Below, piece after piece: positions 1-63,619 of a stretch of DNA of 64,000 nucleotides. Below the pieces are notes generated by a model that was given only the letters and a program-made list of their open reading frames with translations, made no database searches and had not been told where the DNA came from. Position 1 is the first letter of the stretch. The number at the start of each line of letters is the position of its first letter. Location: contig JAYJMM010000019.1 of the NCBI GenBank assembly GCA_037349105.1, positions 434,001-498,000 on the forward strand. The letters are read 5' to 3'. The stretch comes from Limnomonas spitsbergensis. Lineage: Eukaryota; Chlorophyta; Chlorophyceae; Chlamydomonadales. Made by a program: the position numbers and the translations under genes.

Positions 1-486
1 GGAGGACCTGCGAGAGTCTACTGGCTTATACGTTTAAGAAAATGCATAACCCCTGCCTGGGCCCTGCTAATCAAGCGCTCGGCCGCGTGGCACATAGTCA
101 GCAGCCAATTACTCTCAGCCGCACACAGGTGTGCGAAACTCCACTAGCAACCCAGGGAGGCACGAAGGCAGCAACCACCCTCCGTTTCATCGGCAGGCGG
201 ACTTGCCAGAGTCCGCCCTAACACTCTCACAGCAGCTGGAATTGACACAGTTCACGTATCCACCTCAGCAGCAGCCGAACTTGACAGCTTCCACTGGCTT
301 CCCTGCTCCAGGCTATACCAATCGGCCGCCACTCAGCTGCAGCGTGATTGCCGGACTCTACGTCTCATGATTAGCCGCAGCTTGGCTTGCCAGTGACCAC
401 CGGCTCCCCTGCTCCAGGGCGTACCAGGCCGTCACCATTGAGCAGCATGAGGCCGTCACCACACAGCAGCATGAGGCTGCCACCCC
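1..486 (-). repeat. Degenerate copies of the RAB1 terminal exon beyond the stop codon
   Basis: Read on the minus strand, this stretch repeats pieces of RAB1 exon 9, namely the [17 protein letters not shown] part and the Cys-Cys-stop end. Copies are visible around 387-480 and 190-335: the plus-strand strings gcttccctgctccagg and acttgccagagtcc recur. They lie downstream of the genuine stop (489-487), so they are 3' flanking or UTR copies. No separate gene is supported here. Confidence 0.7.
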
Positions 487-3400
487 TCAGCAGCATCCAG
501 ATTTGCCAGAGTCCACCGGCTTCCCTGCCCCAGGCTGCACGACGCCGCCGCCACCAGCGGGACGAGCGATGGGCTGGTTTGCCATCCTGCAACAAATGTT
601 GTTTTCAAACGAAATAAGAATGCAAGCATTTCGATCGAACATTGCACGTGCGCAGGTTTCAGAGAAAACAGAAGGTGCTCATTAGACAGCACTAGATACG
701 ACTAGTTCGATCATCTGCACCTTCTCGTTTTCAAATCAGGCAGAGCGGCCTAGTTCTCTTGCGTCTGCCAAACAAGTCTCCATAGCCTTGGCTTCATTGC
801 CTCCCTTCTGCGTCTCTTCAAGAGGCTCCCTGACCTGTACGCATGTGTTCCTCCACAGTATAAGAGAATCCCTCCATCCCTCCAACTCCTACTTACCAGT
901 GCTGTGCAATTGCGCCGTAATTCAGAAATTGTGATGGTAATTACGGTCCTTTTCTGTTAAAGGAGCTGAACCTGCCTTGAAATTACGGTGACTGAAACTC
1001 AGCTACGCAATTCAGCCACCGTAAGCCCGTAATTGGCCCAGCACTGGTACTTACACAGCCGTAGCTAAACATACAAGACGCTACAAGATGAGAACGTCTC
1101 TCCTCCTTTCATGTCTGTCTTAACAAAATAGGACGTGGTGATGGTGTGCTGGCTGTTAAAAGTTGCCTGCTGTGACTTAGAGCAAACTGCACACCATCAC
1201 ATGGGATCGCCTTAGAAAGGGCAGAGCCCTAAGGACGTTGGCCCCTCCTGCCCCTCACTTGATACCCTACATATCCAGATCTATAGATCCACGCTCCTCT
1301 GGTGCTTTCCCATACAAACCCTGAACCCATGATGCTGTCCCCTTGCACCTTTTGTTTATGTCAGCAGCCATGATCATGAGAGCTAGCTCAATGACAGTCT
1401 CATTCACCCACCCTGCTGGTGTTTCTGAATTCAAAATTCCCAGTTTCTTTTCTAGGAGCCAACGGTGTGAAAAAGTGTGAACATGGGGGGCACTTGCCTT
1501 TCGCGAGCCAAGTCCCATTGACGAGTGGCTTGGCTGAAATCAACAATCGCTAATCCATTGCCTAAACCCAGATCTCATTCACCCCCCCCCCTTGCATCCA
1601 TGATTGATCTCAGCGGCCATTGTCATGAGAGCTCACTCATCGTTGGTCACATCATCCTTCTGCTCCCGCTCAACTCCCCCTTACACATGATCTCCATCTC
1701 AGCAGTCATGGTCGTAAAAGCTTGCCCAACACCTCCCCCTTGAATCCATGATTGATCTCAGGGCAATTGTCACTCATCGTTGGTCCCCTCATCCCTCTGC
1801 TCCCCCCTCACACCTGTTCTTAATCTCAGCAGCCATGGTCATGAAAGCTTGTTCAACATTGGTCGCGTTCTTGGCCGAGGTCTCCAAGAAGGGAATGCCA
1901 ATCTCGTCGGCGAAAGCCTGCGGGCAAAAGTGCGCATGGGAGGAAATCACGCAGTGTGCGTCAATAAGTTGGTCAGCTTCAGAGTAGAGGCAAAGATGAC
2001 CATGCATCCCAGATTACACTGCTAAGTCCATGTCTAGACGATCATGCAGGCAGAAGGAAACCCACAATGAGAGGTGATGGTGGTGATGCTCACTAGAAGG
2101 AACCGATTGTCAGCAGAGGTGATCATGCACGTAGAGGCCAACGATCCAAAGGTCAAAGAGTCTATGCACACAAAAAGGCACAACAAAAGTCATGATTATC
2201 ATGCAACCGAGAAGTAATTACTGCGTCCGTCATAATATCATTATGCAGGCAGCAGAAAACCCTTAACTCTAAACCAACGAGGCAAGGTCAAGGTGGCGAT
2301 GCATAGATGCACACTGAAAAGCACCGGATGGAAGCAAAGACATTTATGTACCCAGGTACACCTCCTGCGTCCGGACTGATACAATCATGCAGGAGGCAGG
2401 AAAGGAAGGAGCCAAGGTGCAGGTGGAGATGCACAGTTAAGACACCGAAAGGAAGATAGTCATGCACTCGGGATGCAACTACTGCATCCGTCTTCTTGCA
2501 AAAATCACAGAGGCAGCAGAGATCCAGAGAGTCAGAAGTGAGGATGATAATACTCGCTACGCACCACTTGGTGGTAGATTTTGCTTCAAACTAGCAACTT
2601 AATCCAGGGGATGCTACAAACTAGTCGCCAGGCCACCCAAGTAGAGGTGAAGACAGTCATGCTCCGTACAGGCCAACAAGATCAGGTCAGGATGATCAAG
2701 CATATCTCTCTCATACATACAAACAGTAACAAAGGACACCACCCAGAAGGCTCATTGTATCCATGCAAAACGTGACAGTTGAGTAGAAATAGAGGTAAAT
2801 CCATGTAAACAGTTTGCCCCCATTTGAATTGAATGAACTCAACAAGTTTACGCATGACTTTTGTCAGATGTACACAAAGGACATCTGTGGTGCAAGAGAT
2901 CTAGGATGGGATTACAAAAGGAAGAAAGGTGAAATTAAAGGCCTCGCATAACACATCAAAAAATACCACTTCAGCACAAGGAGCATAGCGAGGTTCTTGT
3001 GCTCCACTTGCATGCATGGCATTTTTGAGCTCCAACTGCAGAAAGTCATGGCAGTGTGTGCCTAGCCGGCCACAGGCCATAGGCCTGTCAAGGTCTCCAT
3101 CGTCCAAGAGGTGGCTGCCCAGGGCACCGGTCACAAGCGCGCAATGTAAACACTGACGCATGTCTTGAGAATTTCGTTTAAATGGCAAATAATCATGCAG
3201 CCACTCATGCTCACATGTGGCCACATTCGTGGTCCTGAGAGCCCAGCATGGCTAACCATGCGCCTCTGTCAGGATTGCGAGCTCTTCGTACCTAGCCGAA
3301 GGCCTCCTACTGCACAACCCCGAATTAAAATTAGGAATCGGACGCACCTTGGCAGTTGCGTAGTCCACCACCTTCTTGCTGGTCAGGTCACTCTTGTTTC

Positions 3401-4250
3401 CCACCAGTAGCTTGTTCACATTCTCGCTGGCGTAGCGATCGATCTCGTTCAGCCACTGTTTTACATTGTTGAAGCTTTCTTGATCAGTCACGTCGTAAAC
3501 CACCTGCGAAGAAAGGTTGTTGCTTTGAGACCCCGCGATGCTTCCAAGGACCCTAGTCGAGAGAGACGAAAACTGCAGACTTACGATGATGCCATGGGCA
3601 CCACGGTAGTAGCTGCTGGTGATAGTTCGGAACCGTTCTTGCCCTGCTGTGTCCCACTACGCAAGCCAGGGCCAGGTCGTATGGTGTCAGAAACCTAAAG
3701 CTACACAGCAACAGCAGCAGGGCTGGAAGCAGCAGAGGCGATTAAACCTACAATCTGAAGCTTAATGACCTTTCCGTCGAGCTCCACCGTTCTGATTTTC
3801 TGCATCGAAACGAAGGTAAGGGCTCATGAGCTCGTGCGAGTGTGACATGCAAGGTGAGGACACAAATTGGATACGCACAAAGTCAACCCCGATGGTGCTG
3901 ATGTAGCTCTCTGTGTACGTGTCATCCTACAAGGAGAATTGTTTTAAGATCAAGATGTGAAAATAAGAAGACAACATCAACAGCTGACTCACGGCGAAAC
4001 GAAGCAGCAAACATGACTTTCCAACTCCAGAGTCTCCAATTAGCAGCAGCTGCAGATACAGGTTGCAGATTAGTTCGTTCGGCTCTTCTCCTGCTTCCAA
4101 GCAGCTACATGAGCGTTTGAGAGAGTCTCTACCTTGAACAGGTAGTCACTATATTTAGAATGTGAGGAAGGAGGGAGGTGAAAGAGGTCAGAACGAAATT
4201 TGCAAAAATATTGCGAACCTAGGACACGAGTCTTACTATTCAGGGTTCAT
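487..4250 (-). CDS. RAB1: Rab1/Ypt1-family small GTPase (complete, 9 exons)
   Basis: Exons on the minus strand, 5' to 3': 4250-4237, 4148-4133, 4049-3993, 3926-3879, 3799-3752, 3656-3585, 3503-3348, 1917-1814, 586-487. Spliced length is 615 nt, giving 204 aa. All introns are GT-AG and phase is kept throughout. The protein starts MNPEY and carries the P-loop GDSGVGKS (residues 15-22), switch I TIGVDF, WDTAGQE (from W62), NKSD (121-124, usually NKCD) and ETSAK (149-153). It ends in Cys-Cys, the double geranylgeranylation signal. Rab1/Ypt1 proteins are about 203-205 aa and drive ER-to-Golgi vesicle tethering; the family assignment is secure because identity to Rab1 is high over the whole length. 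Exons 1 and 2 are only 14 and 16 nt. Intron 8 and the DNA beyond the stop contain degenerate copies of exon 8 and exon 9 edges. The gene is transcribed divergently from QTRT1. Confidence 0.95.
888..1058. repeat. Foldback (MITE-like) element in RAB1 intron 8
   Basis: The ends are imperfect inverted repeats: the left arm near 889-925 (containing cttaccagtgctg) matches the reverse complement of the right arm near 1025-1058 (containing cagcactggtac). Internal ttacggt/accgtaa segments also pair. This looks like a short non-autonomous inverted-repeat element. No target duplication was established. Confidence 0.5.
1333..1783 (-). repeat. Four degenerate copies of the RAB1 exon 8 3' end in intron 8
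   Basis: Copies of the exon 8 end (coding [12 protein letters not shown]) plus its donor lie at about 1748-1783, 1680-1733, 1586-1640 and 1333-1420. One copy still reads [12 protein letters not shown] on the minus strand. Copy quality falls unevenly with distance. They follow the genuine donor (1814/1813) in the direction of transcription. Confidence 0.7.
1918..3347. other. RAB1 intron 7 (1.43 kb)
   Basis: This is the non-coding interval between RAB1 exons 7 and 8. It contains loosely repeated segments around the word gatcatgcaggcag (2040-2560) but nothing that reads as a domain or exon. It may be decayed repeat material. I see no gene in it. Confidence 0.5.
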
Positions 4251-4866: not shown

Positions 4867-4918
4867 AATGACGTTACACCTCTGGGCCCTGAGCATGGCC
4901 TAGAGGTGTAACGTCATT
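4867..4918. repeat. Near-perfect palindrome of a dispersed element terminus
   Basis: Two 22-nt arms (4867-4888 and 4897-4918) are reverse complements with one mismatch, separated by 8 nt. Each arm contains aatgacgttacacctctggg or its complement. The same terminus recurs across the window, so this looks like two element ends joined head to head. Confidence 0.75.
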
Positions 4919-6860: not shown

Positions 6861-6878
6861 CAAAAGTGTGTCCTCAGT

Positions 6879-7185
6879 CAATGACGTTTCACCTCTGGGC
6901 CCTGCTCAAAAATGGCTTGGCCGCATGGGCGTCTACCTCTTTGATCGGGAAAACAAATATTGTTGAGGTAAGAGAAAAAAACAGCCCTGAGCAGCTTATC
7001 TTAGGGCTAGGGATTCCCTTGGAGATGGGCTGGAGACGCCCGGCTACTCTCCTAGGGCCAGGCGGTCCGCACCTGCAGTCCTGCAGTCCTGCACAAGCAT
7101 GTTTCCCTTGACTTTCCTAGCTGTCTTTTTGTTTGCCGACGTGGCCGAGCTTCATTTCAGCATGGCCCAAAGGTGTAACGTCATG
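6879..7185. mobile_element. Non-autonomous inverted-repeat element (about 0.3 kb)
   Basis: The left end (6879-6932, starting caatgacgtttcacctctgg) and right end (7138-7185, ending aaggtgtaacgtcat) are inverted copies of each other and match the termini at 4867-4918 and 60004-60063. The interior has no transposase-like frame. It is best read as a MITE-like element of an unrecognised superfamily. Confidence 0.55.
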
Positions 7186-8068: not shown

Positions 8069-11000
8069 ATGCTTGGAGCGAGACGGTTGGTAGCAGCAGC
8101 AGCGATGGCCACCTCCGCACCTCTGCCTTCCTCGGCATCGCCTGCTCTCAAGTTCGAGGTGATGATGCAAAGGGGGGGACATGGTACATGGTGTGGGCAT
8201 GGGCATGGAAAGACAAGGGATGATGGATGTCATATGGACATAAGAGGGGTAGATTATGAGCCTGGGGGGACATGGCATGTGGGTACGTGGCGTAGCGGCA
8301 TAGGAATGGGGTACCTGGCATGGGGGAGGCAGCTGCATGGGCAAAGGGTACCTGGTTGTTGGGACGTGGAGTGGGCATGAGGGGAAATGGAGACATGGGC
8401 ATAGAGGTATAAAGCATGGGTATGGGGGGAAGCTGCATGGACATGGGGGGATGCTGCATGGGCATGCAATAAGGTGAAATGGGCATGGGTGTGTGTGTCA
8501 GCCTTGGGGGATGTGGCAGCATGGGGGGTCATGTCAGCATGGGCATGGCGGCACATGGTCGCATAGGCATGGGCAAACTTGGCATGGGCATGAGGGAATG
8601 CGGCTGCATGGGCCAGGAGGCACATGGTGGCATGGGAATGGGCATGGACAGACAAGGTATAGAAGTACCTGTCATGGCCTCATGGGGGCACCTGACGTTG
8701 GGGCACCTGGCCTGGGGGAGGCAGCTGCATGGGCGGACGTGCAGTGTGGGGCGAATTACGGTCGGGACAGTCGGCCTTTTGACAGTTCCACAATTATTTC
8801 ACCGTTCTTCAGTCATCATTGTACTGTTTCCAGGGGACTGTTTCCAGGGGACTGTTTCCAGGGGACTGTTTCCAGGGGACTGTTTCCTGGGGACTGTTTC
8901 CAGGGGACTGTTTCCTGGGGACTGTTTCCAGGGGACTGTTTCCAGGGGACTGTTTCCAGGGGACTGTTTCCAGGGGACTGTTTCCAGGGGACTGTTTCCA
9001 GGGGACTGTTTCCTGGGGACTGTTTCCAGGGGACTGTTTCCAGGGGACTGTTTCCAGGGGACTGTTTCCAGGGGACTGTTTCCAGGGGACTGTTTCCAGG
9101 GGACTGTTTCCAGGGGACTGTTTCCAGGGGACTGTTTCCTGGGGACTGTTTCCAGGGGACTGTTTCCTGGGGACTGTTTCCAGGGGACTGTTTCCTGGGG
9201 ACTGTTTCCAAAGGACTGTTTCCAGGGGACTGTTTCCAGGGGACTGTTTCCAGGGGACTGTTTCCAGGGGACTGTTTCCTGGGGACTGTTTCCAGGGGAC
9301 TGTTTCCTGGGGACTGTTTCCAGGGGACTGTTTCCTGGGGACTGTTTCCAGGGGACTGTTTCCAGGGGACTGTTTCCAGGGGACTGTTTCCAGGGGACTG
9401 TTTCCAGGGGACTGTTTCCAGGGGACTGTTTCCAGGGGACTGTTTCCAGGGGACTGTTTCCAGGGGACTGTTTCCAGGGGACTGTTTCCAGGGGACTGTT
9501 TCCAGGGGACTGTTTCCAGGGGACTGTTTCCAGGGGACTGTTTCCAGGGGACTGTTTCCAGGGGACTGTTTCCAGGGGACTGTTTCCAGGGGACTGTTTC
9601 CAGGGGACTGTTTCCAGGGGACTGTTTCCAGGGGACTGTTTCCAGGGGACTGTTTCCAGGGGACTGTTTCCAGGGGACTGTTTCCAGGGGACTGTTTCCA
9701 GGGGACTGTTTCCAGGGGACTGTTTCCAGGGGACTGTTTCCAGGGGACTGTTTCCAGGGGACTGTTTCCAAAGGACTGTTTCCAGGGGACTGTTTCCAGG
9801 GGACTGTTTCCAGGGGACTGTTTCCAGGGGACTGTTTCCAGGGGACTGTTTCCAGGGGACTGTTTCCAGGGGACTGTTTCCAGGGGACTGTTTCCAGGGG
9901 ACTGTTTCCAGGGGACTGTTTCCAGGGGACTGTTTCCAGGGGACTGTTTCCAGGGGACTGTTTCCAGGGGACTGTTTCCAGGGGACTGTTTCCAGGGGAC
10001 TGTTTCCAGGGGACTGTTTCCAGGGGACTGTTTCCAGGGGACTGTTTCCAGGGGACTGTTTCCAGGGGACTGTTTCCAGGGGACTGTTTCCAGGGGACTG
10101 TTTCCAGGGGACTGTTTCCAGGGGACTGTTTCCAGGGGACTGTTTCCAGGGGACTGTTTCCTGGGGACTGTTTCCAGGGGACTGTTTCCTGGGGACTGTT
10201 TCCAAAGGACTGTTTCCAGGGGACTGTTTCCAGGGGACTGTTTCCAGGGGACTGTTTCCAGGGGACTGTTTCCAGGGGACTGTTTCCAGGGGACTGTTTC
10301 CAAAGGACTGTTTCCAGGGAACACACAATCTTACCTTACCCCTGAGTCCCTTTTATATTGTCAGAGCCCAACACTGCGGACAGGTCATCATAGGAATGGT
10401 GGGAAGCATGGGGCGTCATGGGGTTACATGGTGGCTTAGGCAGGGTGGGAAGCATAGGGTGTCATGGTGGCTTAGGCAGGGTGGGAAGCATAGGGTGTCA
10501 TGGTGGCTTAGGCAGGGTGGGAAGCATAGGGTGTCATGGTGGCTTAGGCAGGGTGGGAAGCAAAGGGTGTCATGGTGGCTTAGGCAGGGTGGGAAGCATA
10601 GGGTGTCATGGTGGCTTAGGCAGGGTGGGAAACATAGGGTGTCATGGTGGCTTAGGCAGGGTGGGAAGCATAGGGTGTCATGGTGGCTTAGGCAGGGTGG
10701 GAAGCATAGGGTGTCATGGTGGCTTAGGCAGGGTGGGAAGCATAGGGTGTCATGGTGGCTTAGGCAGGGTGGGAAACATAGGGTGTCATGGTGGCTTAGG
10801 CAGGGTGGGAAGCAAAGGGTGTCATGGTGGCTTAGGCAGGGTGGGAAGCATAGGGTGTCATGGTGGCTTAGGCAGGGTGGGAAGCATAGGGTGTCATGGT
10901 GGCTTAGGCAGGGTGGGAAACATAGGGTGTCATGGTGGCTTAGGCAGGGTGGGAAGCATAGGGTGTCATGGTGGCTTAGGCAGGGTGGGAAGCATAGGGT

Positions 11001-54000: not shown

Positions 54001-57000
54001 TATATACGGTAGTCGGAAGAAGAAGAGACCGACTGCCCTGAACTAAACAGCCCTCCTTGAAGGTGCTGCTAGATAGGCGACAGTACCGTTATGCCGACTA
54101 TTGAACAGAATCTTGCTTATTTGGTACCAGTAATTAGTCCGCGCACCCGCCCACATATTGTGTGGGGTCTTTGACTGCCAAGTTTGCGCAGCAGGACTTT
54201 TTGAATTATTTTCACCGCGCATGCTGTTCGCGCAGCCCCCCAAAATAATTAATTGAACGCGTAGTGAAACCGGCTCTGCGGTATCTTAAGTTTATCTGAA
54301 GTTCACTTAATCAGGTTCCGCGGCTATTTTCAAAAGGCGTCGCCCCTGAAATACCCGGAAGACTGCTAAAGCATGGTTCAGGATACCGCATATACAGAGT
54401 GCCGTCCCGTACACCTAGGATTGTCAATGTTGATCAGCCCTCCGGGTATTTTCATTGTTTGATGATATTTGCAGGTGGGGGGGGGATTTCATTGTTTGTC
54501 AACATTCGGAGGGGGGGGGTGATCTTCCACCCAACGCCCAACTCCAAATTGAGTCTGAGCAATTCCAACCAGCCTCCATTTCCGAGAAGCTTGCGAACAG
54601 CCTCCATTTCCGAGTAGCTTACAAACAGCCTATATTTCTGAAGCCACTTGGTGCTGCCCCGAACAAGCCATGGTCCTGTAACTTCCATTTAGCTACAGTT
54701 ATAATCCCAGCTGGCACTATCTCGCGTGTGCAGGCTCTGACCTTGTAGCTTCCGTGCAGCTTCTCTCATTATGCCCAGCAGAAACTGCCCCATACAGGCC
54801 TTGGCCCTGCAGCTACCGTGTAGCTACCGTGCAGCTTTATTCCCAGCTTGCACTCTCCCGCGCAGGCCCTGACCCTGTAGCTTCCGTGCGGCTTCTGGAC
54901 CGCCTCAACCTCTTCTCGACGGTGTTCGCGCTGCCCAAGGAGCAGATCCAGCAGCTTCCAAGCAGCTCCATGTATGCCAGCGCATGCGGAAGCTGCATGG
55001 AAGCTGCCGCCAGCCTGGCATCGTCGCTGGGCCTGCAGCTGAATGCGGAGGAACGCCGTTTTTTGCTCATGGCGGCATTGCTGCTGCCTCTAAGGCGGAT
55101 GCAGGTGACACAAACAACCTAAAACATAATACATCCATAGCTGTTTATAAACAAAAAAACGCATTTGAAATGAAAATTAAAAACAGTGTTGCTGATAGGG
55201 TTTGGGGTCGAAAGATGGTGGTTCATGGATTAGAGTATGTTGGGTGGTTGAGGAGGAGCGCCGCTTCTTTCTCGTGGTGGCGCTACTGCTTCCACTTCGG
55301 CGGATGCAGGTGACGCGAAAAATCGTTGTTGCTTGAGTTTGGGGGTCAAGATCGTGTTTCATGGATTGAAGTAATGGGGTGCATGAGGAGGAGGTGCACT
55401 TTTTGCTGTTGGCAGCGCTGCTTCTGCCTCTAAGGTGAATGCAGCTGACACAAATATTGTTGCTGCTTGGGTTGGAGGTTTAAGGATCGTGTTTCATGGA
55501 TTGAAGCATTTTTGGTGGATGAGGAAGAGCTGTGCTTCTTTCTCGTGGCCGTCATCGGAGAGAGCATTGGCTAAACTAAGCCCGCTGGCTATGGCATTTT
55601 GTGTCACTCATTGTTGACCAGCATTGACCAATAAGGCAAGCCCACTCCTGCGCTCCTCTTGCCTCCTAAACAGAAGAGCCCATGCCAGCCCATGCCAGCC
55701 CATGCCAGCCCATGCCAGCCACGATATTCATCGTCCGAGAGAGCTTCAACAGTTGTCACACGTTGTCAGCCACCAATGACCGTCAAGGCCACCCTATCCT
55801 ATGTTTTGCGCAGGTGCCCGGAGCCAAAGGCAGGCCCGCCCCCCCGCCATGACCTGCATTGTATGAGAGAGCATGGACTTGCGTATCCCGCGGTCAACCC
55901 CTACTGACCAATTAGGATCCCTTATCTGACCTCATCTCTCTCCTTTTGTGCAGGTGCCCGGAGCCAAAGGCAAGCCCACCCCTGCCACGACCTTCATCAT
56001 CCGAGAGAGCATCAAGTGGCGGGCAAAGGACGCAGAGATGACCATTGCATTGCACGAAGCGGTAAGGATGCAAGGTGATACCTTTCATGCTGCACAAAGC
56101 TTCTGTTGCTTTCTATTACCGGTGTGCATTGATTTAAACGAATAATCTATTTTATTCGCATGAAGTGGCGTAATTAGGACTTGGCGATAACAACCGCGTT
56201 GCTCAAGGTGGTGAGGACATGCAGTACATTCAATATTTGAATTGCCTTTTGGGCTGCTTGTCAGCGATAGAAAAACAGCACATTTGATGCGATAGAAAAG
56301 CGGCACATTATGTGTTGCTTATATATCGCATCAAATGTCGTGGTAAGGACGCGGAGACGGCGATCGTGTCAAATTGTGGCTGGCTGTTTTGGGGGGGGGC
56401 GCGTGGGGGAGGGGGGCGTAATGTACTGCACCAAGTTGGGAGGGGAGAGTAGTATTGTATCACCTCGGACAGATCCTAGGACAGGTGGCGCGCGCAGTAC
56501 ATTTGAAGGGGGGCAGCTGTCCTCGCTGGTGAGTGCATTTGCCTGGTTGCCTGTTGGGAGCACTGTTGATTTGGGAGGCCTGCGTGTCACCCTTGAGGCT
56601 TGCGCTGCTTGACTCGACGGAATCATATACAAGATGCAAAATGACGTCTGTTTTGCTTATTTTCGCCATTTGTATTGCAGACTTGCATGTACCGGCAGGG
56701 GGACCGGTATGCATGTGACGAAAATGCATGTTTTTTTTCTAAAGCGGCGGCTTTTGTTAGTATGGCAGTGTGTCACTTTGCAACCCGATACATCCCTCCT
56801 GAACCTGAAACTTGAAACCTTGAGCCATTCACCCTCTTGTGCCTTGGCTTTTTCAGAATTGTCGTGAATAGCAACTTACTGCTTCCCCAGCTTGTAGATT
56901 TGCGGTAATTCCTTAGCTTGTGGATTATTGTCGCCCCATAGTATTCCAGCTTGCATTTATTCTTTAAACTTGTAAGCTTGCAGTTGCTTATACCTCTCTG

Positions 57001-60000
57001 CTTCTCCAGCCTGCGGTTATTTTGTACTAATTGCCCCCTCTGATTTGCAATGACTAGCGCCTCTCCATGCTCAGGCCGAGGAGCTTCTTGGAGTTACGAG
57101 TGTGACTCTCCATATCACAAACTTGCAGTTGATTCAGTTATTTCAGTTCCTGGTGCCTCTCCTTGCTCAGGCTGAGGAGCTCCTTGCAATTATGTCTTTA
57201 TCTTTCATTCCCTCCCCTTCTGATCCTGCAGTTTTTGCAGTTACATGTGCCTCTTCTCAGTCATGCAGAGGATCTCCCAGTGATGTCCCTAGGTGTGACG
57301 CTCCATCTTCCCAGCTTGCAGTTACTGCAGTTACTTGCGCCTCTCCGTGTGCGAGCTGAGGAGAATATATATCAGTCGTGTTTGACTGTCCATCTTCCCA
57401 GCTTGGACTTCACTTACCGACCTTGCTTGTGCTGCTCCCTGCGTAGGCTGAGGAGCTCCTATCTGTTAACGATCTGCTGACTTCTGACGGTGCATCGTCA
57501 GGAGAGAAAGTCAAGGTGGTCCTGGGACTGACCATTAGGAAACTGAAGCAACATTGGAGGCTGGGTGAGTGAAGTGGAGGGGGAGGGGAGAGAGGCAGTG
57601 GTAAGGATGGGAGGAGGGAGAGAGGAGGGATGGGGGGGGGGGGGGGGAATGGTTTGGGGGGGAGGGGGGCAGGGGGAGACAAGGGGAGGGGAAGGTTGGA
57701 TGGGAGAGGAGGAGGAGGCAGTGGTTGGAGCGGGAGGGTGGGGGAGGAGTCGAGGGAGAGAAGGGTGGGGGGGGAGGGGAGATAAGAGGGGAGGGGAGAG
57801 GACGGAATGGGAGATAGGAGGGGAGGATAGGAGGAAGGACGGTGGGGAGGAAGGGAGGGGGGGAAGGACGGTGGGGAGGAAGGGAGGGGAGGAAGGGAGG
57901 GGGGGAAGGGGTGGGGAGGAAGGGAGGGGGGGAAGGGGTGGGGAGGGAAGAAATGTGAGTGGGTGAGTGTTTTACTCTAATAGGAGAGATGGATGTCGAG
58001 GGGTCAAATCTAGAAAAGAAATCTAGGAGGGCCTACAGCTGGTGGCCTGAGCAGCGGGCTTGCTGAAAAACTAAGTCAAGCCGTGTGTTGGTCGTGAAGT
58101 GGCTGAATGGTAGCTTGAGCCAGTAGGCAAATTTGTGCCCCGATCCCTCGCTTTCCCTACCCTGATTTGATCTGCCTACAGCGCAGCAGTCAATTTTCCA
58201 AGGAAAGAATTCGAATTTAAAAAACAGCTAGCGCTTTAAGAGCATGAGCTCGCATGCAGAAAGAAGTAAACGGCTCGAGAAAACGAGAGGGACTGCAAAA
58301 TCGAAACACCGTTCCCTCCTGCGCTGCTACTCTTTCCTACCCTACCCTGCCCGCCCCACACCTGACTGCCTTGTCCTGATGTCAGTGCTTAATGCACAAC
58401 AGACTTCAATCCCTGGAAGACACCACCGGTGACCAGGATTCAAAAACTGGGTTTACCTCTAGCCCAAGGCAGGCTTTATCCTGATGCAGCTGCTTCGAAT
58501 GCAGCTGCTGTAGATTCGAAACACACACCAAAAACTGCATTCAGAGAACGCCTTTCTCTACCCTTGTCAGGCGCTGTCCTGACAATGCTGGCAGCGCTGA
58601 TCATGATAGTGATCATAACGCTGCTGATGGTGATACGTAGTTACGCGAAAAATAAGTAAATAAGACTTCACCCAACCGTAGCTGTTAATCCAAAAACTAT
58701 TTGAAATTCACACAATTCAAATTTCCCCCCTCCCCTGTTTGTCAGGCGTCATCCTGATGCCGCTGCTGACCATGCCGTGCGCCGCACCCCTCGGCGGCGA
58801 GCAGACAACGTCCACCTCCTCCCCTGCCTCCGCCGCCCGCGGGACCGCGAGGGGCGAGCTGCCCTCAGGGGGACTGGAGGCGGTGCAGCTGGTGCTGACC
58901 TCTGCCGCTGCGTTCGGGCTGGAGGACTGCTGGCAATGGAAGTCACTACTGGATGGGAAGCAGGTGGGAGGTAGCGTAGGTTTGATATGCCTTCCCTCAG
59001 GGAGTGAAATAACGATCTCTGTGTATGCTGCCCTCGGGGCAAGTTATTGACCAAAACTGTTGATTTCTGACTGAAAACTGGCGTCGGCAATCGATAATTA
59101 GCATATTCATGGATCCCTCAAACCCCAAACAACGTTAAGTACGAGGAAAGGCCAAGGAAAGCTACAGTAGTCGTTAATTTAGTTATTTAGTAACCGGTAT
59201 AGGTGTAGGGCTGCTGGCGGCCTCTTTAAAGACTTAGTTATGCTTCAGCATTTATTATGTAGTTTGTTGACACACTAGCCATCTAGCTTAAGGGTTTTAA
59301 CTATTAAAATGGTTAAGGTTCCAATTGAAATGGTTTAGAGGTAAGAGTTCACTTATCACTGTTCCGAGATTTCAGCAGCTATGACAAGACGCAGGTGGGC
59401 AACTGTGCTTATTTGACTGTGCACCACGCATCTTCAGGCTCATGGGTTTTAGTGTTAGGGTTTTTAGGGTGCATGTGAGAGTGTGGATGGGTAATAAGCG
59501 CCAACCACTCAACAGCTGAGGTCACCGTATGTTTGTGTGGAGGGGAGAAGAAGGAAAGGAGGAAACAGGGGAGAGGCTGGCTTTCTGGGGACGACGCTCT
59601 TACAGGAACAAGGCTGAATGGTAGCTGAATGGTAACTGAACCGTAGCTTCCAGTTGTTATCAGGAGACACTGGGTGGCCAGGCTAATTTATGTGTGTGAC
59701 TCAGGCACTGTTCAGCTCCTCCCTGGGTCGGCGGCCATGCTCCCTGATAGCCAGATGAGGATATGGCTGATGTCCCTCACTGTTCTCGTAAGCTTGATTC
59801 AACCACGATTCAGCCTAGCCAAGATCCACTGCTGTGGGGGACTGGCACACGACACTAGTTGGCATCAGCTGACCTGGACCCTAAACCTTCAACCCACCCT
59901 TCACCCTGAATATCTCAGCTGAAACCCTTAACCTTCACCCAAAACCCTTAAGTCTTAATCCTGAGCCATTGAACCTAAGCCTTCAAATTTGCGCAGCCCT

Positions 60001-60341
60001 TAAGTTAGGCGCCCACGTGGCCGAGCCTGTTTGAGCAGGGCCCAGAGGCGTAACGTCATTGACATGCGCAGGTGATGATGCTTCTAGGCATCAGTTGACC
60101 TGAACCTCGAACATTGCTCCGTTGAAATTTCCCAGTTCAATGACCTTACACCCTTTTGGGCCCTGCTCACACTTCTGAAATCTCGCAGGTGATGGCGCTC
60201 CTGGGCATCAGCCGACCTGGACCCGAGCTGGGCACGGCGGTGGCGGCGGTGGTGGAGTGGCAGCTGTCACATCCACAGGGCTCAGCAGAGGATTGCTGCA
60301 CTCACATCGCAGCAAAGTGGGGGGCACAAGGCGCTAAATAA
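42015..60341 (+). CDS. CCA: CCA tRNA nucleotidyltransferase (complete, 12 exons)
   Basis: Exons: 42015-42449, 43135-43242, 45099-45253, 46683-46767, 49175-49256, 52281-52372, 53373-53442, 54866-55104, 55954-56061, 57447-57564, 58746-58963, 60189-60341. They total 1863 nt (620 aa), with GT-AG introns and unbroken phase. The class II CCA-adding enzyme adds CCA to tRNA 3' ends without a template. Visible motifs: GGWVRD with the metal site DID (D157, D159), DNM, NPDQSKHLETAR, RRDFTINSMFYN (RRD at 243-245), DLTEKG (from 262), DDPLRVLR (288-294) and ERIG (331-334). The C-terminal half, with FIIRES, VVLGLTIRKLKQHW and HPQGSAEDC, matches the long plant-type enzymes. The first ~100 residues are Arg/Ala/Ser/Thr-rich and nearly free of acids at the start, like an organelle transit peptide; internal in-frame ATGs (for example MQPMQQ at 42306) could give a cytosolic form. 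Confidence 0.95.
42475..42512 (+). repeat. Copy of the CCA exon 1 3' edge
   Basis: gcggtactgtactgcgacgt ... ggtggctgg repeats the exon 1 end (gcggtacggtacttcgatgt ... ggaggctgg) about 58 bp downstream; the donor position reads gagcg here. Confidence 0.7.
42740..43060 (+). repeat. 28-bp tandem repeat in CCA intron 1
   Basis: Units built on catgcgcctgaccccatgct plus tctggtcc run for about 320 bp, moderately degenerate. Periodic open frames on the minus strand are artefacts. Confidence 0.85.
43297..43960 (+). repeat. Copies of the CCA exon 2 3' edge, with a 14-bp array between them
   Basis: Degenerate copies of the exon 2 end (TTTGCGGAGCTCGTCAACAC to AAGGCTGAG) lie near 43297-43342, 43408-43450 and 43925-43962. 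Between them, catactacatagtg repeats about 12 times (43600-43770). A dispersed repeat follows at 43771-43875. Confidence 0.75.
43771..43875 (+). mobile_element. Dispersed ~100-bp repeat, copy 1
   Basis: The segment from tatacttccatagt to gagtccgggtg is shared with 52768-52866 in intron 6 of the same gene, at a level obvious by eye (tatacttccatagt, gaagctgcc/gaacctgcc, tatggaaattgccttc/tatgggaatcgccttc). Class unknown. Confidence 0.55.
44047..45060 (+). repeat. Many copies of the CCA exon 3 5' edge
   Basis: First, six tandem 31-bp units (44047-44233) repeat the AAVIQANPDQ-coding part as AAVIQATPNQ. Then longer copies carrying the acceptor and exon start (ccacagggcaaggagaacc type) occur near 44301, 44419, 44552, 44689 and 44960, before the genuine exon at 45099. 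Several also copy the later exon piece coding HLETARMKVNG (for example 44610-44640 and 44878-44905). Confidence 0.88.
45334..45380 (+). repeat. Copy of the CCA exon 3 3' edge
   Basis: cacgcaagacagccgtatcc followed by ccatcatgca copies the exon end coding AQDSRIPTM, about 110 bp downstream of it. Confidence 0.8.
45486..46680 (+). repeat. CATCACTCATCACA-rich repeats with copies of the CCA exon 4 5' edge
   Basis: Degenerate tandem words (catcactcatcacccctgca and relatives) fill 45520-46020 and 46300-46670. Copies of the exon 4 start (gcgctccaggactccct) occur near 45586, 45940 and 46254, ahead of the genuine exon at 46683. A dispersed element (46040-46190) interrupts them. Confidence 0.8.
46790..47070 (+). 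repeat. TTTAGGG-like words and copies of the CCA exon 4 3' edge
   Basis: Degenerate gggtttagggtcagg words are mixed with two copies of the exon 4 end: a poor one near 46838-46862 and a better one near 47010-47060 (NSPMFFDMNAGELE against NSMFYNINTGEVE, followed by a gtggg donor). Confidence 0.65.
47335..47668 (+). repeat. 9-bp repeat (accctttgc / aacctttgc), about 36 copies
   Basis: The nonamer repeats with c/a and g/a variants and a single inserted t near 47594. It lies in CCA intron 4. Confidence 0.97.
48201..48240. repeat. Perfect 17-bp hairpin
   Basis: Arms ctaatagggcggtgtcc (48201-48217) and its exact complement (48224-48240) flank a 6-nt loop. It directly precedes the 51-bp array and sits inside CCA intron 4. 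Confidence 0.9.
48285..48825 (+). repeat. 51-bp tandem repeat, about 10 copies
   Basis: Each unit contains cgagacctgttgtacctgtt, cttggttggtgcggaggctg and tgacacgcctc. Copies are almost identical (a/g at one site). Open 17-residue-periodic frames exist on both strands and are not credible proteins. Confidence 0.97.
49010..49100 (+). repeat. Copy of the CCA exon 5 5' edge
   Basis: The sequence tacaggacctccagagcaga followed by catcgtgcgcac is a deleted copy of acceptor and exon 5 (gcaggatctcac ... agagcaggcatcctgcgcac). It is preceded by tagatcctggtgtc words that recur before the genuine exon (49122). Confidence 0.7.
49301..52110 (+). repeat. 99-bp exon-edge satellite, about 29 units (CCA intron 5)
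   Basis: Each unit repeats the last ~46 nt of exon 5 (ggcatcctgcgcacgcc ... ttggatg), the donor region and ~53 nt of intron (gggtttaggagtttgtgttt). Starts include 49308, 49508, 49607 and 49706; spacing is 99 bp. The first copy has the donor mutated to ATGAGG. Nearly all later copies read ttggatg|gcaagg, so the copied donor is GC instead of GT. The 33-residue periodic frames reflect 99 = 3 x 33 and are not a gene. Confidence 0.93.
52548..52585 (+). repeat. Copy of the CCA exon 6 3' edge
   Basis: ggaggcagcctccagcaaat repeats the exon 6 end (EAASSKD) about 200 bp downstream. It is followed by tgcgtgga in place of gtgggt. Confidence 0.7.
52768..52866 (+). mobile_element. Dispersed ~100-bp repeat, copy 2
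   Basis: Second copy of the segment seen at 43771-43875, here with an internal poly-C run (52806-52820). Confidence 0.55.
52953..53040 (+). mobile_element. Dispersed repeat ending in a TTTC-like tract, copy 2
   Basis: Shares gcgcggatgtggctttggcc and cacggggcgtagcttttttc with 34057-34155. It lies in CCA intron 6. Confidence 0.5.
53540..54430 (+). repeat. Copy of the CCA exon 7 3' edge and a directly repeated flank around an AT-rich insert
   Basis: tcaggtcagagctggagggt ... tgttcaatggtac at 53547-53582 copies the exon 7 end with its donor. Further on, a segment near 53628-53740 (aaaggcatcgcccct ... caccttggattcgac) has a weaker direct copy near 54330-54425, flanking about 0.6 kb rich in gtccgcgcag words. 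The latter may be an insertion or another local duplication. Confidence 0.5.
54660..54860 (+). repeat. Copies of the CCA exon 8 5' edge
   Basis: tgcaggctctgaccttgtag (54729) and acaggccttggccctgcagc (54794) copy the acceptor and start of exon 8 (cgcaggccctgaccctgtag, 54861). Spacing is about 66 bp. Confidence 0.8.
55245..55560 (+). repeat. Three copies of the CCA exon 8 3' edge
   Basis: Copies of the exon end coding EERRFLLMAALLLPLRRMQ occur at about 55249-55311 (EERRFFLVVALLLPLRRMQ with an intact gtgacg donor), 55384-55447 and 55517-55550. Spacing is about 135 bp. Confidence 0.88.
55625..55905 (+). repeat. Copies of the CCA exon 9 5' part
   Basis: gcaggtgcccggagccaaag at 55810 exactly repeats the genuine acceptor region at 55950. 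A piece reading cacgatattcatcgtccgag at 55718 copies the TFIIRES-coding part. Short catgccagcc repeats lie between. Confidence 0.8.
56150..56375 (+). repeat. Degenerate copies of the CCA exon 9 3' edge
   Basis: Copies of the exon end (tggcgggcaaaggacgcaga ... gaagcggtaagg) lie at about 56164-56218 and 56333-56372 (tcgtggtaaggacgcggaga). A gatagaaaagcggcacat duplication lies between them. Confidence 0.65.
57068..57365 (+). repeat. Four copies of the CCA exon 10 5' edge
   Basis: ctcaggccgaggagcttctt (57072), ctcaggctgaggagctcctt (57166), catgcagaggatctcccagt (57262) and gagctgaggagaatatatat (57350) parallel the genuine gtaggctgaggagctcctat at 57444. Spacing is about 94 bp. Confidence 0.85.
57565..57960 (+). 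repeat. G/A-rich low-complexity tract from the intron 10 donor
   Basis: From the donor gtgagt the intron is a purine-rich run of gggaggggag, gggggg and gaaggacggtggggagg units. It has no coding value. Confidence 0.9.
58455..58620 (+). repeat. Copies of the CCA exon 11 5' edge
   Basis: caggctttatcctgatgcag (58471) and tgtcaggcgctgtcctgaca (58567) copy the genuine acceptor and start tgtcaggcgtcatcctgatg (58740). Spacing is about 95-175 bp. Confidence 0.75.
59855..60120 (+). repeat. Copies of the CCA exon 12 5' edge
   Basis: ggcatcagctgacctggacc (59862) and caggtgatgatgcttctagg (60070) with catcagttgacctgaacc copy the genuine caggtgatggcgctcctggg start (60186). A dispersed terminus at 60004-60063 interrupts the series. 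Confidence 0.8.
60004..60171. mobile_element. Inverted pair of dispersed element termini
   Basis: 60004-60063 (ggcgcccacgtggccgagcc ... taacgtcattga) and the inverted end at 60137-60171 (caatgaccttacaccctttt ... ccctgctcac) belong to the family seen at 4867-4918 and 6879-7185. Another inverted copy is at 60951-61010. Confidence 0.55.
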
Positions 60342-61581: not shown

Positions 61582-63619
61582 TCAGCCGGACCTAACCAAG
61601 CCATCCTCGCTGGGGTTGGGCTGCGGAACCTGCCTGGGGTTTAGCTGAAGCGGCCTGAGCTGAGCTGAATCTTGGACGCCTTTTCCCATCTCCATCTCCT
61701 GCGTGGCCTTGGACAGATCCCTCTCAGCCTTGACATCCGCCAACAACTTGCCCCAGATCCAGTGCGAAAAGAAGAGCTGCTCCACCTCCTCCAATGGTAC
61801 GTTCTTGGTCTCAGGGACGAAGAAGATGACGAACACAGTGAAGAATAAGATCCATGCAGCAAAGTACTGCAGCAAGTGGAGCAGGTAGGTGTAGATGGAA
61901 AGGTCAGGATCGGTGTTAAGGGTCTCGGCGTTTAGGGTTGGGTGTGCAGGGTTCAGGGGTCTGTTCGCGAAGTGCAGTCATAGGCCAAACTTGCCCAGAC
62001 GATTGACGTAAACAATTCCTTATTCATCTTGTTTAGACAGCAATGTTAAAGAGAAGGAAAGCAAATCAGCTCCCTTCAGGGCGAACCAGATCACAGAATA
62101 GTACACCTCGCTCTTGAAGCCACATCCACGCCATTGCTATCAACAAAAACAGCGACCAATTTGGCAGGCCGTTGCGGGTCACAGGAAAACAACATACCAC
62201 ACTATGCATAATACATGCAGGTGTCCTGTAGCTACAGCGCGTGAAGGAAGTACTGGGGCAGTATGTAGCTGAGCTGCAGCTGAACTGTACCAAGGAAGCA
62301 CTGGGGCTGTAGCTGAACTGCAGCTTAAGCGCTCCAAGGATGCACTGAGACAGTAACTCAGTAGCTTAACTGCAGCTGAAGCGCACCAAGGAGACACTGA
62401 GGCACACACCAGGAAAAGTCCAAAATCCATGACACACAGCAAGGCAGGGATGTAGCTGAGATGCATGACTCAGGAAACACCAAGACACACACCAGGAGGA
62501 CTGCACACTCCATGCTACACAACATAATTCATGTAGCTGACATGTAGCTGAGGCACAAAACTTGGGATACACCGAGACACTCACCAGGATAACTCCATGC
62601 CACACAACAGAATTTGTGCAGCTGACATGTAGCTGAGGCACATCACAACCGAGACACTCACCAGGAAAACTCTATACTCCATGCTACACAACATAATTCA
62701 TGTAGCTGACATGTAGCTCAGGCACGTAACAAATGACACTCACCAGGAAGACTCCATACTCCATGCCACACAACATCATTCATGGAGCTGACATGTAGCT
62801 GAGGCACATAACAACCGGGACACTCACCAGGAAGACTCCATACTCCATGCCACACAGCATGGCCGGGAATGCCTGGCCGTTGAGGAAGGTGATGAGTAGG
62901 CTGATGGAGGTGGTGATGGCCATGCCCGCAGAGCGAGTCTCCAGAGGCTGAACCTCTACGAACACGAAATAAAGAGGTGGAAGTATGATCGTCAAGTCCG
63001 CAGCGTCATTCGATTAGTTTGAGATGGGGAAGTTACAGCCATGCTAGTGGACGAATTTCCGAACGAGTTTTCAGAGGGGCTGAACCTCTGCAAGATCAGA
63101 AGTGGGCTGGGGTAGTAAAGCAACAGCGTCCACCTCCCAATGATATGAGTAATTGTCCTGCTGATGTATGGTACAACTGCTGATGTCAGGGTGCTTCAGC
63201 TACACGTGTGCTACACTTCAGCTACAATTCAAATCCTAGAACCATAGGCCTTTGAAAGTCTGAATGCTCTGACGCCTAGCCCTGATGCTTGCACAACTGC
63301 TGGCACGACCGGCCGGACAAATTTAGCCACCGATATTCGAACAAATCGGCTGGCAGCTGCAAACGGGTTTTAAGTTGTCTCAAAGCTCACCAGTTGGAAC
63401 CAGCCATCCAAGGGGTCCCCATGACCACGCAAATCCAGACACCATCAGACAGAGCAGGAACAGCACTGCGTCTGTGACTGATTTCTCTGTGCTCCCTGCA
63501 ACGCTTGCCAGGACGGCTCCAATCGCGATCAGTGCGACCGCCATTTGACTGCCGCCTTCAATGAGAAGCGGCCTGCGCCCAAAGTAATCCACCGTAGCCA
63601 CAGCAACGAGCGTACAAAC
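61582..63619 (-). CDS. Plant-type sugar:H+ symporter (MFS, STP/HUP-like), last three exons; 5' part outside window
   Basis: Minus-strand exons, 5' to 3': 63619-63391, 62955-62828, 61866-61582 (stop TGA 61584-61582), joined by GT-AG introns with matching phase. They code 213 C-terminal residues. Visible family marks are the loop motif DYFGRRPL followed by EGG, the segment [14 protein letters not shown] + [10 protein letters not shown] (family [21 protein letters not shown], shown in parts), GQAFPAMLCGMEYGVFL, the last membrane helix YFAAWILFFTVFVIFFVPET and the PETK motif followed by VPLEEVE. These correspond to helices ~7-12 of a 12-helix hexose transporter at the plasma membrane; the substrate cannot be assigned. 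No upstream exon was recognised between 63620 and 64000, so the gene should continue beyond the window. Confidence 0.9.
62402..62780 (-). repeat. Five copies of the transporter penultimate exon 3' edge and donor
   Basis: On the minus strand, the genuine exon end (ATGGAGTATGGAGTCTTCCT followed by G|GTGAGTGTC, boundary 62828/62827) is repeated at about 62735-62780, 62653-62690, 62577-62612, 62484-62525 and 62402-62440, roughly 84 bp apart. The first three copies keep the GTGAGTGTC donor. Between copies are tgtagctgaca words. Confidence 0.88.

Follow-up and report, generated by a model that had tools for sequence, protein, structure and literature searches.

Copies of exon edges in the long introns of a snow alga suggest intron growth by untargeted local tandem duplication

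The long introns of the snow alga Limnomonas spitsbergensis most probably grow by untargeted local tandem duplication (we put the probability at about 0.8). The copies of splice junctions that they contain would then be a by-product, with the spare sites disregarded by splicing.

Results

We analysed a window of 64,000 nucleotides from contig JAYJMM010000019.1 and fixed 35 exons of four genes; all positions given are those of the window. The queuine tRNA-ribosyltransferase gene QTRT1 (8069..40754, + strand) has 12 exons (8069-8158, 13855-13948, 15002-15086, 15882-15972, 32963-33083, 33838-33928, 34356-34423, 35433-35570, 36604-36688, 37337-37438, 39656-39818, 40578-40754), all with GT-AG borders, and an open frame of 434 aa that matches the Pfam TGT family PF01702 at 1.3e-145. 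The CCA-adding enzyme gene (42015..60341, + strand) also has 12 exons (42015-42449, 43135-43242, 45099-45253, 46683-46767, 49175-49256, 52281-52372, 53373-53442, 54866-55104, 55954-56061, 57447-57564, 58746-58963, 60189-60341), again all GT-AG, with an open frame of 620 aa containing PF01743 (PolyA_pol) and PF12627. On the - strand lie a RAB1-like GTPase gene (1814..4250; PF00071, 4e-69), of which eight exons were identified (4237-4250, 4133-4148, 3993-4049, 3879-3926, 3752-3799, 3585-3656, 3348-3503, 1814-1917) and the final exon was not located, and the last three exons of a sugar transporter gene (63391-63619, 62828-62955, 61590-61866, the locus spanning 61590..63619 with an approximate end of the last exon; PF00083, 1.1e-35). 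The frames of these two genes are open as well, and their GT-AG dinucleotides were taken by direct reading of the sequence.

A junction copy was defined as an exon edge together with its splice site, found by gapped local alignment against dinucleotide-shuffled flanks in the 3 kb around each junction. Such same-strand copies occur at 32 of the 64 splice junctions of the window (17/32 donors, 15/32 acceptors), confirming that all four genes carry them beside genuine exons. They number at least 79, at most eight being counted on each side, so that totals are minimum figures, and every counted copy lies wholly within the intron adjoining its source exon, at 66-100% identity to the source. Within the same 3 kb, the gapped alignment of the 64 junctions returned no copy on the far side of the exon and no inverted one.

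In QTRT1 (all copies on the + strand), each of the exons named in the original prediction (2, 4, 5, 6, 8, 9, 11 and 12) has copies, and the acceptor of exon 3 can be added. Single copies represent the donor edges of exon 2 (14024..14084, 87%, with a longer extension spanning most of the exon) and exon 4 (16055..16127, 85%) and the acceptor edges of exons 4 (15732..15781, 80%), 11 (39502..39586, 70%) and 12 (40430..40485, 84%). Two copies each belong to the donor edges of exons 5 (33147..33479, 73-87%), 6 (33981..34285, 72-74%) and 11 (39879..40058, 67-76%) and to the acceptor edge of exon 9 (36311..36553, 81-86%), while the acceptor edges of exons 6 (33517..33754, 68-77%) and 8 (35060..35371, 77-81%) have three degenerate copies each. 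The copies of the exon 8 donor edge have a 20-bp array in between (35621..36183).

For the CCA gene (+ strand), copies had been claimed for almost every exon (1-12); they are present for exons 2-10 and 12 and absent for exon 11, and exon 1 has a match in the ungapped scan alone (donor, shift of 58 bp). The donor edges of exons 3 (45332..45398, 76%), 4 (47006..47080, 69%), 6 (52538..52580, 84%) and 7 (53544..53613, 80%) and the acceptor edge of exon 12 (60038..60112, 80%) have one copy each, and two were found for the exon 8 donor (55260..55456, 75-82%) and the exon 10 acceptor (57133..57394, 70-72%). Three copies derive from the exon 2 donor (43298..43981, 66-71%), four from the exon 3 acceptor (44386..45012, 75-78% for three of them) and six from the exon 4 acceptor (45522..46294); further copies match the acceptors of exons 8 (54685..54814, 71-86%) and 9 (55625..55859, 74-85%). 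On the - strand, the penultimate exon of the transporter, which had also been named, has copies of both edges, with a single one for the acceptor (63059..63117, 76%) and an array for the donor. For RAB1 the claim concerned exons 8-9 and stands for the donor of exon 8 (three copies, 1319..1731, - strand, 75-85%), the sole junction of this gene with copies; six RAB1 introns of 66-95 bp are bare of them.

Copy numbers range from 1 to 164, as had been stated. A 100-bp satellite of about 164 copies (164.8; 96% matches; 16540..33015, + strand) repeats the acceptor and the first 53 nt of QTRT1 exon 5, and its functional copy is the last one, with the acceptor before 32963. The sequence from -46 to +53 occurs 34 times and that from -22 to +53 occurs 51 times, the true site included, which leaves 33 spare acceptors that differ from the true site at none of 99 nt. 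The donor edge of CCA exon 5 is repeated in a 99-bp satellite of 28.5 copies (49273..52099, + strand), in which GT is replaced by GC in 26/27 scored copies and by AT in 1/27. Shorter arrays contain the donor edges of the transporter penultimate exon (84 bp, 4.6 copies, 62479..62860, - strand), where the first copy equals the true donor over 29 exon and 9 intron nt (38 nt), and of QTRT1 exon 9 (110 bp, 3.3 copies, 36665..37032, + strand).

Elsewhere in the genome, 18/66 junctions of CCT/Cpn60 genes have copies, strictly within the adjoining intron for 15 and as a sole copy beyond it for 3/18, and so do 3/28 junctions of further paralogous introns. Pooled over all sets, 53/158 junctions are copy-bearing, 50/53 with a copy wholly within the adjoining intron; junctions of long introns account for all of them (53/116), and none was found at the 42 junctions of introns shorter than 260 bp. 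The predicted one-sidedness, with 5'-edge copies upstream and 3'-edge copies downstream, holds at 53/53 copy-bearing junctions, the gapped scan finding wrong-side copies at 0/158. All 53 have same-strand copies, and an inverted match occurs at 1/158. The ungapped scan gave one wrong-direction match (QTRT1 exon 2 acceptor, +125 bp, 66%), which we take to be that exon's donor copy, carrying nearly the whole exon.

The nearest copy lies at 77-142 bp in 37/50 cases, where 60-150 bp had been proposed; the QTRT1 exon 5 satellite enters this list at 1000 bp solely because no more than eight copies were counted per side. The gapped scan under-detects copies closer than about 70 bp, and an ungapped scan without that floor placed the best shift below 77 bp at 2/49 junctions, or any shift with a score of at least 90 at 10/49. 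Under strict extension, 13/50 nearest copies can be aligned over at least 0.8 of the spacing and 20/50 over less than 0.4, so that head-to-tail adjacency is directly visible in the younger arrays only. The copies are local, are tandem in these younger arrays and occupy much of the intron length, as proposed, and they are present at the CCT/Cpn60 loci too.

Among 42 copies, identity is 0.78 over the first 30 bp of the exon side, and 0.67 and then 0.61 on the intron side, against a null of 0.47-0.52. Exon parts remain recognisable for longer because the exon is conserved, one copy being frozen by selection. In 17 single copies a weak similarity runs on into the intron part (combined p 6.6e-8 at 35-75 bp), so that the duplicated unit extends beyond the exon edge. 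More than 60 exon bp are present in 6/42 copies, compared with 56/167 expected if duplication were unbiased (p 0.014); random duplication thus predicts more copies with most of an exon than there are, and survival is not fully neutral. Seven of 12 paralogous CCT intron pairs have copies, with no junction bearing them in both introns of a pair; in one example, an intron of 240 bp has no copies and its counterpart of 622 bp has two inside. Together with the identities in the window, this supports a recent or continuing process.

The claim that the process is aimed at coding/non-coding boundaries is not supported by comparison with intron interiors. Random intron points are duplicated at 178/319 when either side is considered (122/186, 52/103 and 4/30 by sample set) and at 272/638 per side, so that the 53/116 at junctions of long introns represents no excess and is in fact lower (Fisher p 0.066). 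In 60-bp sliding windows, the duplicated fraction is 0.49 at junctions, 0.46-0.57 in introns and 0.22 in intergenic DNA. Inverted matches at 22/289 interior points indicate that interior duplicates, too, are mostly same-strand. As had been anticipated, density is not equal in intergenic DNA: duplicates are found at 174/289 intron points compared with 19/80 intergenic points, a small and non-independent sample, and 83/282 random windows.

We modelled uniform duplication with hand-tuned simulations, in which tandem duplications of about 110 bp were placed at random, introns grew from 120-200 bp and exons were frozen. These gave junction rates of 0.52-0.58 and ratios to the one-sided interior rate of 1.09-1.19, compared with the observed 0.50 and 1.08, and the observed junction rate therefore appears reproducible without targeting. 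Longer starting introns yielded fewer junction matches (0.35-0.44), and strong rate differences among introns a junction/interior ratio of only 0.36-0.40.

That frozen exons suffice to reproduce the junction rate, and that identity is higher on the exon side than on the intron side, makes it fairly probable that near-exon duplications are no commoner than others and that exon edges simply preserve the record, one copy being under selection. This reading forms part of the best explanation; alone, however, it leaves unexplained the density of duplicates in introns relative to the small intergenic sample and to random windows.

An unlikely alternative is a mechanism that duplicates junction segments more often than others, for instance through R-loops, nucleosome edges or breakage at exon borders. 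In its favour, 99/174 (57%) of duplicated interior points fall in exon-edge-derived areas, a share above all uniform simulations (0.20-0.39; best runs 0.31-0.39) and far from the 0.07-0.09 obtained when intron rates differ strongly, against which runs the observed junction rate would itself be an excess; two- to threefold targeting lifts the simulated share to 0.31-0.47. Interior points outside these areas have matches at 75/174 (0.43), compared with 0.61-0.70 in the best uniform simulations, and both figures leave room for some exon-edge preference. However, junctions do not exceed the interior, the observed ratio of 1.07-1.08 lies in the range for uniform duplication (0.94-1.19) and below that for twofold targeting (1.30-1.37), and the large 14-bp and 36-bp arrays of QTRT1 intron 1 have no recognisable exon part. 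We also doubt the stronger version, by which junctions are true hot spots where duplications with an 80-140 bp unit form, or survive, at two to three times the interior rate, long introns are largely decayed exon-edge copies, and the process is tolerated through whole-exon recognition.

Intron birth as in the Rogers model, in which AGGT segments would be duplicated at junctions already present and the stretch between copies spliced out as a separate intron, could account for spacings of mostly 77-142 bp, close to a minimal intron (66-95 bp in RAB1). It is very unlikely, since exonic AG at donors (16/25 with copies, 15/25 without) and exonic GT at acceptors (10/25 and 11/25) are not enriched and no extra intron is needed for the gene models. 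Still less credit is due to the idea that copies are retained as decoys for splicing regulation. Up to 164 copies occur, dozens with intact acceptor context, and when each junction is represented by a single copy, AG persists in 0.84 of 25 (0.64 expected) and GT in 0.65 of 23, so that acceptor cores may be lost more slowly than expected. Across all copies, however, AG is kept in 44/59 and GT in 41/60 (expected 0.64 each), a loss at about the neutral rate; none of the 27 scored copies of the CCA exon 5 array has GT, and arrays differ between paralogs. An artefact of long-read consensus can practically be dismissed: big satellites are difficult to assemble, but outside them the listed copies mostly show 66-90% identity to the source, a divergence that errors of assembly do not produce, and the published assembly is built from PacBio reads with an L50 of 32.9 kb (PMC11228838).

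Discussion

Under untargeted duplication, long introns would lengthen as short segments, mostly of about 80-140 bp, are often duplicated locally and head to tail, at any position. Wholly intronic events would be neutral, and junction-crossing ones would be tolerated, one copy staying attached to the exon body and working while the other turns intronic. Arrays are one-sided because a copy can function only if it is attached to the remainder of the exon; as the anatomy shows, the spare copy of an acceptor would have to sit upstream and that of a donor downstream. It was thus mistaken to hold that one-sided arrays fall outside the predictions of tandem-duplication models, for the geometry of duplication forces them. 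Spare copies would drift roughly neutrally, some arrays probably expanding to satellites through further duplication or unequal exchange, and intact reading frames suggest that splicing disregards the spare sites. The process looked exon-specific because copies of exon edges can be recognised for longer than purely intronic ones.

Introner elements are related sequences, dispersed among genes, through which new introns are inserted, and they carry splice sites. Both they and the arrays described here add intron DNA with splice sites, but an array here is made of copies of the junction next to it (in the 3 kb searched around junctions). Introner-type insertion making new introns is not what the window shows: all of the at least 79 copies lie inside the intron adjoining their source exon.

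A closer parallel is the potato RdRp gene, in which a tandem duplication across an acceptor junction, inheriting its splice signals, is described as having created a new intron, and which also holds an 83-bp intronic tandem duplication (PMC4974935). The junction-spanning duplication is shared; the potato case is one event giving a new intron, whereas events in the alga are frequent, multi-copy and affect donors too, and a new intron position was not observed in the gene models. Intron gain by AGGT tandem duplication, with related Drosophila cases described in PMC2891723, likewise involves short local tandem duplication with splice-like sequence. In that model exonic AGGT segments become introns, while in the alga existing junctions are copied, AGGT is unenriched and introns lengthen. 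In the related green algae Chlamydomonas reinhardtii and Volvox carteri, introns are similarly repeat-dense, being richest in tandem repeats, with more near intron-exon junctions (PMC3887541). That scan is described for units of 1-50 bp, copies including exon sequence lying outside its described coverage; the main class in L. spitsbergensis is 77-142 bp and spans the junction. The duplications may, tentatively, arise by fill-in and end-joining at staggered breaks, which is described as producing small tandem duplications at induced breaks in mouse and human cells (PMC8355091); these are short and head-to-tail like those of the alga, with sizes (<100 bp) only roughly alike.

The arrays constitute a natural experiment on splice-site choice, with dozens of spare acceptors that match the true one at all of 99 nt and a spare donor that does so at 38 nt, a situation in which local sequence cannot decide. 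As some spare sites equal the true one for about 100 nt, the choice must depend on sequence beyond; the simplest reading is exon definition, in which an exon is recognised as a unit through both of its splice sites. In Volvox and Chlamydomonas, whose introns are short, intron definition is the proposed mode (PMC4378016). The mean intron measures 788 bp in L. spitsbergensis and 229 bp in C. reinhardtii (PMC11247165), and the genes studied here speak for cross-exon recognition in the presence of long introns. Intron growth by tandem duplications of about 100 bp is visible here almost event by event, since the conserved exon gives each event its orientation and helps in dating it. The resulting 'half-exon' arrays are a trap for gene prediction, and may be raw material for new exons or introns.

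Copies of exon edges in the window

Limnomonas spitsbergensis is an Arctic snow alga with a mean intron length of 788 bp (PMC11228838), and the available part of its genome description makes no mention of exon-edge copies. Exons of the window genes were built by hand from conserved protein motifs, with frame and splice sites checked. This yielded QTRT1 (12 exons, 434 aa) and the CCA-adding enzyme (12 exons, 620 aa) on the forward strand, and a RAB1-like GTPase (8 exons in the model, which lacks the last one) and the three final exons of a sugar transporter on the reverse strand. Pfam agrees with these models, which are predicted from sequence; at each junction, the copy in use was assumed to be the one that runs directly into the conserved exon.

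Up to 50 exon and up to 50 intron bases of each junction were aligned to 3 kb on each side, on both strands, with thresholds derived from dinucleotide-shuffled flanks. Hits were kept only if at least 8 bases were spanned on each side of the junction, and up to 8 were counted per side. Copies were found at 32 of the 64 window junctions (donors 17/32, acceptors 15/32; QTRT1 15, CCA 14, transporter 2, RAB1 1), which confirms the exon-edge copies of the original prediction and reproduces its list of QTRT1 exons. With this limit of 8 per side, all 79 copies lie within the adjoining intron, and over the 64 junctions, 3 kb and both strands none was found beyond the far side of the exon and none was inverted. 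A second scan, in which whole exons with 60-bp flanks were aligned, returned 33 acceptor-type upstream and 36 donor-type downstream matches, one of the opposite kind in each case, 5 weak matches spanning both exon edges and 5 exon-only matches.

A 27-bp × 40 array at 37438-38526 starts at the QTRT1 exon 10 donor; its repeats contain a GGTGGGAGG donor-like core and hardly any exon sequence. QTRT1 intron 1 contains two large arrays, at 8823-10319 (14 bp × 107) and 10427-13022 (36 bp × 72). Neither was scored as an exon-edge copy in the junction scan, so satellites arise away from junctions too.

Replication in other genes

Cpn60_TCP1 (Pfam) was located in the same genome with 72 exon matches, 70 of which were used, two single-exon matches on contigs C82 and C97 being left out. 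Fourteen of these chaperonin (CCT) loci were examined, and splice-site scoring of 37 pairs of consecutive HMM matches gave 33 introns in 12 loci, four pairs yielding none. Copies were present at 18 of the 66 junctions, always in the intron direction, and no inverted copy was found at any of the 66. A copy lay wholly within the adjoining intron at 15 of the 18, and at the other three the sole copy (64-85%) falls past it. A further 14 introns were delimited by comparing conserved exons within three pairs of paralogous genes; copies occur at 3/28 of their junctions, all intronic, and another junction has an inverted match. With all sets pooled, copies occur at 53/158 junctions: 53/116 in introns of 260 bp or longer and 0/42 in shorter ones, the RAB1 exon 8 donor and the first transporter acceptor being counted as long despite unknown intron length.

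Junctions compared with intron interiors

Control points were placed at random inside introns no shorter than 260 bp, with a distance of 80 bp or more to any junction and, in the window, no more than 12 points per intron. Scored as junctions were, 122/186 were duplicated in the window, 52/103 in the CCT loci and 4/30 in the paralog-derived introns (178/319 in sum). Because a junction can be copied in only one direction, the fair comparator is the one-sided interior rate, which is 272/638 (0.43) against 53/116 (0.46) for junctions; the proposed aiming of duplication at exon edges is thus not borne out. For the window and CCT sets together, duplicates were found at 50/100 junctions and 174/289 interior points. 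Interior points outside known exon-edge-copy areas were duplicated in 75/174 cases (Fisher p 0.31 versus junctions), and 99 of the 174 duplicated interior points fall within areas derived from exon edges.

In 60-bp sliding windows the duplicated fraction was 0.49 at junctions, 0.46-0.57 in introns, 0.29 in exons, 0.22 in intergenic DNA and 0.01-0.06 for inverted matches. Intergenic density was also lower by points, as predicted (19/80 against 174/289, the intergenic sample being three gaps of one window); exon middles in the window gave 5/18, and six unannotated 10-kb windows gave 83/282. Local duplicates are therefore denser in introns than in the rest of the sampled DNA, but junctions show no excess over introns.

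The one-sided pattern follows from tandem duplication, contrary to the claim that such models fail to predict it. A head-to-tail duplication over an intron end and exon start would leave the second copy joined to the exon and the first in the intron; over a donor the order would be reversed, with the second copy becoming intronic. Only one of the two copies would stay attached to the remainder of the exon, and the pattern needs no special mechanism. Among the 42 nearest copies at 60-210 bp, identity was 0.78 over the first 30 exon bases, 0.67 over the first 30 intron bases and 0.61 over the second 30 (null 0.47-0.52). The exon part is more alike because selection freezes one exon copy while both intron copies drift, and the process consequently looks exon-specific. 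In single copies, the intron part at 35-75 bp still showed above-chance similarity (8/17 with p<0.05; combined p 6.6e-8), so the duplicated unit reaches well into the intron, as expected for a tandem unit of 80-140 bp.

Simulations and alternative explanations

Random tandem duplications of ~110 bp were simulated in sequence whose introns drifted while its exons stayed frozen; small indels, deletions and insertions of unique DNA were also allowed. Under uniform duplication, the fairest version, with tuned settings and starting introns of 120-200 bp, yielded rates of 0.52-0.58 for junctions and 0.45-0.52 for the one-sided interior, and a ratio of 1.09-1.19; the observed values (window plus CCT) are 0.50, 0.46 and 1.08. 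Twofold targeting gave a ratio of 1.30 in this version and 1.37 in an earlier one. Earlier simulations had longer starting introns, and some lacked indels or had saturated interiors; with longer starting introns the junction rate was 0.35-0.44 and the ratio 0.94-1.01. Where duplication rates differed strongly between introns, the ratio fell to 0.36-0.40, and under that model the observed data would represent a junction excess.

Three features fit poorly. The exon-edge-derived share (99/174) exceeds that of every uniform run (at most 0.39), and interior outside exon-edge areas is less duplicated (0.43) than in the fairest simulation (0.61-0.70). Targeting, the growth of arrays or the presence of older unique DNA in introns could account for both. 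Copies that include over 60 exon bases are also scarce (6/42 versus 56/167, 61/148 and 50/115 in uniform runs). Such copies caused wrong-side hits in the simulations (e.g. 15/212, counts that contain some chance hits, with 7/232 inverted in one run), and the gapped scan of the real sequence had none. From this small sample, we read the scarcity and the missing wrong-side hits as selection against whole-exon-like copies. An exon-edge-targeted mechanism is kept as a rival, towards which the exon-edge-derived share leans; the similar junction and interior rates speak against it and make it unnecessary beside random local duplication in long introns.

One idea, that spacing has a sharp lower limit of ~80 bp linked to the size of a minimal intron, seemed strong when the best-scoring shift was used, and nearest shifts below 77 bp were indeed rarer at junctions (10/47) than in interiors (85/152; p 2.7e-5). 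This difference resided in many-copy short-period arrays, two-copy duplications showing none (7/36 versus 14/47, p 0.32), and the idea was dropped. A conveyor model, in which the nearest copy is the youngest, is weak, as the nearest copy was most similar at only 15/28 junctions (mean rank correlation -0.34; calculated without the exon-5 acceptor). Copies were extended by a strict version of the procedure, a lax one having strayed into unrelated sequence. AGGT was not enriched, so a nested-intron origin was set aside, and functional decoys were rejected.

Decay and turnover

Taken over all copies, splice cores are retained about as overall identity predicts (AG 44/59, GT 41/60, 0.64 expected for each; 119 of 122 copies had an aligned core). 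With one copy per junction, AG was kept in 0.84 (n=25, expected 0.64) and GT in 0.65 (n=23, expected 0.65), and loss may be slower at acceptors.

Paralogous CCT genes provided twelve intron pairs for comparison, of which seven have copies inside the intron: five in C39/C99 (641/255, 588/778, 227/329, 756/445 and 479/687 bp) and two in C36/C119 (240/622 and 858/875 bp). In none of the seven did both members carry copies at the same junction, so the visible arrays arose or were replaced after those gene duplications. CCT paralog exon blocks are mostly 78-92% identical. Three CCT-like pairs lie on separate contigs (loci L036/L037 on C39/C99, L040/L041 on C36/C119, L042/L043 on C84/C114), with collinear exon blocks, most intron sequence unmatched and, in most blocks, mismatches mainly at one codon position. 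They appear to be old duplicates that have been retained, and large segments or the whole genome may have been duplicated.

Spare splice sites and satellites

QTRT1 intron 4 holds ~164 repeats of the exon 5 acceptor together with the first 53 nt of that exon. The true site not counted, 33 copies match it perfectly between -46 and +53, and 50 do so between -22 and +53. The transporter's first spare donor equals the true one across 29 exon and 9 intron nt. No sequence within these identical stretches can therefore mark the right site, and the differences left are the rest of the exon with its other splice site, or position. Exon-wide recognition would be the simplest reading; intron definition has been proposed for the short introns of Volvox and Chlamydomonas (PMC4378016). 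In the CCA exon-5 array the donor position is GC in 26 of 27 scored copies and AT in one, so that the array probably spread after donor loss. The exon-5 satellite (16561-32962, 16.4 kb) has 7 TAA, 3 TAG and no TGA over all forward frames together. Its 100-bp consensus is free of stop triplets in all forward frames, and mis-splicing into it would be translated over long stretches.

A perfect 17-bp inverted repeat with a 6-nt loop, seen by eye at 48201-48240 in CCA intron 4, directly precedes a 51-bp × 10.6 satellite (48279-48821). A GTAGCTGA-type 11-bp motif occurs in tandem pairs, on both strands and in several genes (13380-13420, 14295-14313, 48044-48073, 59621-59639, 60366-60384, 62265-62802, 63207-63225). 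Its 16 matches (up to 3 mismatches; shuffles expect none), some within the transporter array, look like a dispersed short repeat. TAACGTCATTGAC has 3 matches with at most one mismatch (4909-4921, 6877-6889, 60051-60063; 0.05 expected), one of them within the copy that precedes CCA exon 12, and may be the terminus of a dispersed element.

Relation to known duplications

Earlier reports describe one tandem duplication across an intron-exon boundary in potato (PMC4974935), a high density of short tandem repeats in the introns of algae, with units of 1-50 bp and commoner near intron ends (PMC3887541), and small tandem duplications at staggered breaks in mammalian cells (PMC8355091). The copies here span junctions and lie mostly at 77-142 bp. 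What is new is the scale, with copies at 53/116 sampled long-intron junctions and arrays of up to 164 copies; no report of frequent junction-spanning tandem arrays was found in the literature searched. Of the original interpretation, the tandem, recent and, in the sampled loci, widespread nature of the duplications stands, while their aiming at exon edges is not supported. The main interest of these copies lies in the record that they provide of intron growth and in the natural test that they offer of splice-site choice.
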